Origin: Verrucomicrobiales bacterium
GTDB taxonomy: Bacteria > Verrucomicrobiota > Verrucomicrobiia > Limisphaerales > F1-80-MAGS106
DNA: 35,474 bases
Assembly: GCA_005805305.1 (NCBI GenBank)
Contig: SYMW01000127.1
Span: 1 to 35,474 of the forward strand
Reading direction: 5' to 3'
The notes under the pieces are model-generated. The model did not search any database. It was not told the origin of the DNA and saw only the letters and a list, made by a program, of their open reading frames with translations. The translations under genes and the position numbers were made by a program. Of this stretch, positions 15,413 to 16,346 are shown piece by piece. Position 1 is the stretch's first letter, and every line of letters begins with the position of its first letter.

Positions 15413-15883
15413 ATGAACATCGTTCTCGTGGAACCTGAAATAGCCCCGAACGTCGGCAACGTCGCCAGGCTGTGCGCCGCCACACGAACGACCCTTCATC
15501 TGATCGAGCCATTCGGATTTCAACTGGACGACGCCAGACTCAGAAGAGCCGGCATGGACTATTGGACACACGTCCAGTGGAGGCGCTGGCAATCGTGGCA
15601 GGATTGCCTGGCCTCCAAGGAACGCGGCGCGCGGGTTTGGTTTGTCGAGTCCAACGGCCCCCAGCACTACGCGGAACCGCGATACGACTCCCTGGATTAC
15701 CTCGTCTTCGGCCGCGAGAGCGCCGGATTGCCTTTGGCATGGCTGGAGGCGAATCCAGCATCCTGGTTGCGCATACCCCTCTTCCACCGCGAATGCAGAT
15801 CTTTGAATCTGGCCAACTGCGCGGCGCTGGTTCTTTATGAGGCGTTGCGCCAGCAAGATTTTCGCGGCGAGCTCGCTCGCTGA
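15413..15883 (+). CDS. trmL: tRNA (cytidine/uridine-34 2'-O)-methyltransferase TrmL
   Basis: SPOUT-class methyltransferase that 2'-O-methylates the wobble base of leucine tRNAs with S-adenosylmethionine; acts as a dimer. 156 residues, the usual minimal size. The trefoil-knot motifs are MNIVLVEPEIAPNVGNVARLCAAT (1-24), YLVFGRESAGLP, and RSLNLANCAALVLYEALRQ near the end. It is third in the ruvX-truA-trmL set. A strong hairpin (15896-15923) follows 13 bases after the stop, suggesting the operon ends here. Confidence 0.95.
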   Translation: MNIVLVEPEIAPNVGNVARLCAATRTTLHLIEPFGFQLDDARLRRAGMDYWTHVQWRRWQSWQDCLASKERGARVWFVESNGPQHYAEPRYDSLDYLVFGRESAGLPLAWLEANPASWLRIPLFHRECRSLNLANCAALVLYEALRQQDFRGELAR

Positions 15884-15895
15884 GGTGCCGAGGTA

Positions 15896-15923
15896 TCTCC
15901 CCTGAGCGGCGCGCCAGGGGAGA
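15896..15923. terminator. Hairpin between convergent trmL and the Lys-rich gene
   Basis: TCTCCCCTG (15896-15904) and CAGGGGAGA (15915-15923) form a perfect 9-bp stem with a 10-base GC-rich loop. It sits between the trmL stop (15883) and the stop of the minus-strand Lys-rich gene (15940), where a bidirectional terminator is expected. No T-run follows on either strand, so it may be a transcript-end stabiliser instead. Confidence 0.55.
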
Positions 15924-15939
15924 CAATACTGATGTGCCT

Positions 15940-16065
15940 CTACTTCTTCTTGGCAGGCGCCTTTTTGGCCGGTGCCGCGGCCGCTTTCTTTTTGTCCGCG
16001 CTGCTGGCTTTGGCTTGTTTTTGTGTTGACTTCTTCTGGTTGGATTTTGGGGATTTGTCGCCCAT
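15940..16065 (-). CDS. 41-residue Lys/Ala-rich microprotein
   Basis: A short frame from ATG 16065 to TAG at 15940. The product starts MGDKSPKSNQKKSTQKQ and ends in alternating Ala/Lys/Pro. I count 14 Lys and 10 Ala in 41 residues and no Asp/Glu except two Asp, so it is strongly basic and probably disordered. I recall similar MGDKSPKS-type small proteins in diverse bacteria, including Planctomycetes and Verrucomicrobia, annotated only as hypothetical; this needs a database check. The composition suggests nucleic-acid or ribosome binding, but that is inference. It is convergent with trmL, with a hairpin between, and divergent from the TPR gene. A GGAGGAG at about 16097 is too far upstream to be its ribosome site. 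Confidence 0.7.
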   Translation of the reverse strand: MGDKSPKSNQKKSTQKQAKASSADKKKAAAAPAKKAPAKKK

Positions 16066-16346
16066 GGTCGTGGTTGTTTAATTTATGGGTTCACTCTCCT
16101 CCGATATGTCAGTTTCTCCGGAGGAAGTCCACATCATGCCCGCTCGTAGTTACTTTGTAAATGATGGACACAAATTGATCAGCGGATTGTGCGAGCCAAT
16201 CGCGTTTTTCCTGCGTCCTTGAACGGTCCTTTTTCGTTTTGCGTTTTGCAGCGTGACACCGCACGATGAACGTTAGGCTCTGGGTTCGGCCTCTCCGCAT
16301 CCGCTACGATGCCTGTCTCGTCGAACAATCCAGCGCCGTTATCGGC

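Follow-up and report, generated by a model that had tools for sequence, protein, structure and literature searches.

A conserved lysine-rich microprotein gene of Verrucomicrobiota and its predicted two-hairpin mRNA frame, reused for a second short peptide

Microproteins of a few tens of residues are usually written off as noise, and the locus considered here raises the question of whether such an open reading frame (ORF) is a gene and, if so, what its surroundings say of its function. The window, i.e., the whole stretch of 35,474 nt that was analysed (contig SYMW01000127.1 of a Verrucomicrobiales bacterium), holds the following ORF.

15940-16065 (stop included), minus strand: microprotein ORF of the MGDKSPK family, 41 aa, based on translation, homologues and coding-type substitutions.

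The first-pass annotation had pointed to a 41-residue Lys-rich ORF at this place without giving its strand; the coordinates proved exact and Lys does make up about one third of the residues, the strand being the minus one, where translation from 16065 to 15940 gives MGDKSPKSNQKKSTQKQAKASSADKKKAAAAPAKKAPAKKK followed by a stop. On the plus strand of 15940-16065, the frame is interrupted by a stop. As many as 60 ORFs of at least 30 aa overlap 5 kb of this region; a 41-aa ORF by itself is no evidence of a gene and the case rests on comparison.

In BLAST searches against relatives (E < 0.01), full-length homologues with 53-78% identity were found in 22 of 58 genomes, own included, where the first-pass annotation had named a complete lack of homologues as speaking against a gene. 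A profile scan of a named genome collection confirmed 153 relatives, the best 80 of which were retained, and whole-genome profile searches returned one copy per genome. Among 59 members of 41 aa, the pN/pS ratio was 0.44 over codons 9-41, with a share of changed sites of 0.48 at the third codon position and of about 0.3 at the first and second, codons 1-8 having been omitted because the search pattern fixed them. Since homologues occur in 22/58 genomes, 153 relatives are confirmed and substitutions follow the frame, the ORF goes beyond chance; on this comparative footing, it is a genuine gene, conserved in Verrucomicrobiota and evolving as coding DNA. One genome has, besides an intact MGDKSPK copy, a second one with a broken frame and a weak leader match (L153:1002-1052, which is also the place of L030).

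The microprotein is found mostly in Verrucomicrobiota, where 10 of the 194 genomes of an even sample match (E 0.001), and it is therefore patchy outside the window's order. The statement, in the first-pass annotation, that similar short basic proteins occur in several phyla agrees with several of the labels recovered, i.e., loci titled Bacteriovoracaceae, Deltaproteobacteria, Phycisphaerales, Chloroflexota and others, though these are sparse and the labels outside Verrucomicrobiota (Planctomycetes, Chloroflexota, delta-type) are record titles only. Titles of metagenome assemblies can err, and one microprotein locus bears the title Klebsiella; within the class that includes the Chloroflexota-titled genome, 5/150 genomes match, which argues against simple contamination. 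A search for phage homologues returned none.

Upstream of the ORF, alignment of 59 homologous leaders revealed a constant order, namely TTTACA, 17 nt, CANNNT, 6 nt, a hairpin, GAGUCAACC, an A-rich stretch and the start codon. In the window, the promoter elements are the following.

16156-16161, minus strand: -35 element TTTACA, part of a sigma70-like site.
16133-16138, minus strand: -10 element CATGAT (family consensus CANNNT), based on homologous leaders.

This sigma70-like site (TTTACA-17-CANNNT) is the only such site in the 440 bp of 15860-16300. Among the 59 leaders, TTTACA is exact in 47, the spacer between the two elements measures 17 nt in 50, and the -10 element has A at position 2 in all and T at position 6 in 58. 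The distance from the -10 element to the hairpin is 6 nt in 46 of the 59 (7 nt in the window); with a promoter about 6 nt before it, the hairpin should therefore form the 5' end of the mRNA. The earlier view of a real microprotein with its own transcription unit is supported, and the protein is absent from protein-family libraries.

Between promoter and start codon, the leader comprises three elements.

16097-16125, minus strand: 5' leader hairpin with GAAAC in the loop, stem 16125-16118 with 16104-16097, based on a match to the 5' hairpin model (R1) and covariation.
16088-16096, minus strand: conserved single-stranded motif GAGTGAACC (family GAGTCAACC), leader alignment columns 36-44.
16066-16087, minus strand: A-rich translation start region without Shine-Dalgarno sequence, based on homologous leaders.

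In the 59 leaders, 84.5% of the stem cells are paired, and this share falls to 42-47% when the partner is slid by one column; double-sided changes retaining pairing amount to 39 cells, against a shuffled mean of 12.5, and touch six of the eight pairs, while position 10/31 of the stem is unpaired in 25 leaders. The hairpin is short and folds alone at -11.4 kcal/mol, no more than a modest advantage over shuffles (z -0.8 to -2.8). In the family, the loop reads GNGAAAC...YAUN, then GAGUCAACC. In a held-out set, made up of second copies and of Opitutaceae-like members, 84% of cells pair and the covariation score is reached by no shuffle. R1 matches the window at 16081-16130 (E 2e-11), the single copy in a genome 82% complete; over 56 relatives, the 14 best matches all lie at the microprotein gene, and four Opitutaceae-like loci outside the model (L177-L180), of the same class as the window and another order, match directly before the ORF with E 1e-6 to 2e-9. 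Weak R1 matches were considered as extra leaders and dismissed: behind those inspected, no Lys-rich ORF stood at a suitable distance, and several of them lay in the coding sequence of other genes, with the exception of L139, a true second-type gene (see below). An upstream ORF in the leader (GGAG...AUG in the loop) was likewise rejected, as AUU, AUA or AUC may stand in place of its AUG and the reading frame is not maintained (by eye). The start region is 59% A in the homologous leaders, compared with 21% A before 18 neighbouring genes, and a Shine-Dalgarno-like 4-mer occurs in only 2 of the 59.

A second hairpin follows the ORF.

15894-15925, minus strand: 3' hairpin TGTCTCCCCTGG-CGCGCCGC-TCAGGGGAGATA, no U run in the window, based on hairpin search, the 3' hairpin model (R2) and covariation.

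Lying about 13 nt (median) past the stop, it has 10-13 bp, a pyrimidine-rich 5' arm and the consensus CUGUCUCUCCUG...CAGGAGAGACAG (CUGUCUC...GAGACAG). In the window, its GC-rich stem of 12 pairs folds at -23.5 kcal/mol (z = -5.0 vs shuffles) and matches R2 at 15880-15931 (E 7.5e-5); covariation was counted in 50 cells, against 13.2 when shuffled, with double-sided changes in 11 of 12 pairs. The stem in the window is not followed by the U run of an intrinsic terminator, which several homologues do have. Both flanks put forward in the first-pass annotation, namely a hairpin (15925-15894, downstream) and a divergent gene (TPR, from 16266), are in place, the conservation of the 3' hairpin's sequence having been missed. 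Over 40 relatives, R2 matches adjoin the microprotein ORF with few weak exceptions; being scarce behind other genes, this hairpin is therefore not what usually ends transcription in these bacteria, and it seems to be limited to the window's order. The 5' loop was also considered as a pairing partner of the 3' hairpin, to which it is partly complementary by eye; as no covariation was seen, this was set aside. Neither the 5' nor the 3' element matched Rfam 15, at the gathering threshold in the window or at E up to 10 in 15880-16280.

Two hairpins at the ends of a short mRNA could act passively, the 5' one blocking end-dependent decay and the 3' one ending transcription and blocking exonucleases, so that the mRNA is stable and abundant and the loop is never read. 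Nearly all members have the leader hairpin where the 5' end is predicted, the 3' hairpin is very stable, and Opitutaceae-like L180 has an ordinary U-tailed terminator in its place, all of which would fit. A fixed loop would, however, be superfluous in a passive stabiliser, whereas GAAA never varies among the 59 leaders and scarcely varies among the held-out members, which come from two orders; GAGUCAACC, 3' of the stem, is conserved as well. Besides, R2 matches are scarce behind other genes, so that the 3' hairpin is not a generic terminator of these genomes. Passive protection thus seems rather unlikely, and active recognition of the leader is favoured because the sequence of the loop and its 3' flank is maintained in both orders, whereas the stem can vary.

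The two hairpins are not restricted to the MGDKSPK family. In the fetched loci, extra R1 matches away from the known ORF led to a different ORF behind, of 22-27 codons and with the consensus MATKSKAKKPATKPAPKKKVAAKKK, at nine loci, namely L043, L044, L048, L056, L078, L095, L106, L112, and L139.

L078:2832-2912: second microprotein, MATKSKAKK..., 22-27 aa.

These loci have the same kind of promoter as the microprotein gene, R2 matches at all nine with E < 1e-3, and R1 is strong in most and weak in L106 and L139, none of the copies having been used in building either model. As judged from these matches, the promoter and two-hairpin frame is reused for a second, shorter lysine-rich peptide; to our knowledge, such a reusable frame for lysine-rich microproteins is undescribed. 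The transcription unit assumed in the first-pass annotation stands, enlarged by what it had overlooked, i.e., a covarying 5' hairpin and a second peptide family on the same hairpins. The hairpin models provide a search handle that reached a family of 22-27 aa hardly accessible to protein search, and the RNA around the ORF is an independent proof of a functional gene.

Because two conserved hairpins are particular to this short transcript and the frame is retained when the peptide differs, it might also be read as a dual-function small RNA, where the RNA is the main product, the hairpins act in trans and the ORF is secondary. This is very improbable: the ORF is under protein-level selection, contacts between the 5' and 3' ends with covariation are not seen, and in other phyla the ORF is found where the hairpin is missing and Shine-Dalgarno sequences are present: distant-phylum members gave no clear match to R1, and several have a Shine-Dalgarno-like sequence.

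Turning to the peptide itself, it has a mean net charge of about +10, an invariant DKSPK start and, according to AlphaFold, a helix over residues 6-30 predicted with middling confidence (mean pLDDT 69). No family of Pfam-A, linker histone included, matched at E up to 10, no NCBIfam family fits, and no homologous PDB chain was found at E up to 10 with a profile of 22 members, bL37, bS22/bL38 and THX included. The window's copy lies between a convergent SpoU-type methylase gene and the divergent TPR gene (start 16266); within 4 kb, RRM genes occur at 20/106 loci, DEAD-box helicase genes at 16/106 and DnaJ genes at 15/106, in several arrangements, counts that are not independent and are inflated by shared ancestry, some genomes being sampled twice and synteny inherited. 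A control set of 158 kb, mostly DNA of relatives, contained none of the three. The synteny check advised in the first-pass annotation thus found recurrent neighbours in relatives, while these genes are absent from the window and from most loci. Because of the composition and the RRM, DEAD-box and DnaJ neighbours of relatives, the nucleic-acid or ribosome association that had been suggested is plausible, binding itself being inferred; most likely, the microprotein would bind RNA (ribosome, rRNA or mRNA) in RNA maintenance under cold or other stress.

Alternatively, it could be a DNA-binding nucleoid protein resembling a histone H1 tail (KSPK, AAPAKKAPAKKK) rather than an RNA-binding one, as its composition and SPK motif would allow, the second peptide (KKPATKPAPKKKVAAKKK) resembling an H1 tail even more. 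With no Pfam match at E 10, a score of 9.8 bits (E 1.1) against the curated cut-off of 100 bits of the Rv3852 family (NCBIfam NF050153), and recurrent neighbours that are RNA and chaperone genes with no DNA genes, this is improbable.

Another protein gene follows the cassette in relatives, after either peptide, and is likewise lacking beside the window's copy.

L078:3028-3237 and 28 other loci: protein of about 70 aa, LKLxQGQVWKxG...RIVRLERLxVxYK...KKxFCRLLK.

Like the second peptide, this neighbour found at 29 loci has no Pfam or NCBIfam family; a small beta-rich fold is predicted, with no significant PDB match (best E 0.014).

The sequence itself establishes that the promoter matches, that both hairpins covary, that the ORF is under coding selection and that the frame is reused. 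The reading we prefer, at a probability of roughly 0.45, is that of a small-protein gene which has its own promoter and a dedicated mRNA frame; its leader would be read by a factor and its peptide would bind RNA. RNA polymerase would start at or beside the base of the 5' hairpin, giving an mRNA of about 230 nt with a hairpin at both ends; the A-rich start region would be read without Shine-Dalgarno pairing, and the GAAAC loop and GAGUCAACC stretch may be the contacts of a trans-acting RNA-binding factor setting stability or translation. Candidates for this factor are the RRM protein, whose gene is often adjacent in relatives, or, in a feedback loop, the peptide itself.

Neither small structured leaders nor small basic proteins are new as such. 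Autoregulatory leader RNAs of ribosomal proteins likewise place a 5' hairpin with a conserved loop before a small basic protein gene; they differ in that no rRNA mimicry is seen here in 23S H11, one candidate site, and that the element is not in Rfam. In E. coli, 23S H11 presumably carries a GAAAC loop followed by AUCAACC, resembling the leader, whereas 17 related genomes read GUGAAACAUCUCAGUA...AAAACGAA or near, with only GAAAC in common; autoregulation by rRNA mimicry, the most attractive version, found no support at H11, the one site compared, and was dropped. The ompA mRNA carries a 5'-terminal stabilising stem-loop, comparable to the hairpin at the (here predicted) mRNA 5' end, but the present leader has a sequence-conserved loop and 3' flank particular to Lys-rich microprotein genes. 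On the protein side, actinobacterial bL37 has 24 aa and a helical N-terminus and sits in an rRNA pocket (PMC5876184), and bS22/bL38 are small extra ribosomal proteins of Borrelia (PMC10618245). The microprotein is like them in being very small, clade-restricted and overlooked by annotation, whereas no PDB chain matched it at E 10.

A search limited to open papers yielded nothing relevant on the microprotein gene or the RNA motif. Tentatively, and at less than even odds, the leader may represent a new class of cis-regulatory RNA, with a regulon of at least two families of short Lys-rich peptides and an RNA-binding protein or the peptides themselves as reader. If the loop is a regulatory site, it would offer a directly testable post-transcriptional circuit in Verrucomicrobiota.

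Two further observations concern leader-like sequences. On a single contig, CTTCGGAGAAGCCGAAGACGG lies twice within a hairpin that has an A-rich stretch behind it (L143:154-195 and 1394-1435), probably an unrelated repeat. At seven Akkermansiaceae-type loci (L052, L057, L076, L087, L103, L105, and L113), the leaders are without the GAAAC hairpin; they exhibit promoter-like sites of the TTGAC type and other stretches resembling hairpins, several of which contain GGCAAYCC, possibly a diverged version of the 5' leader.
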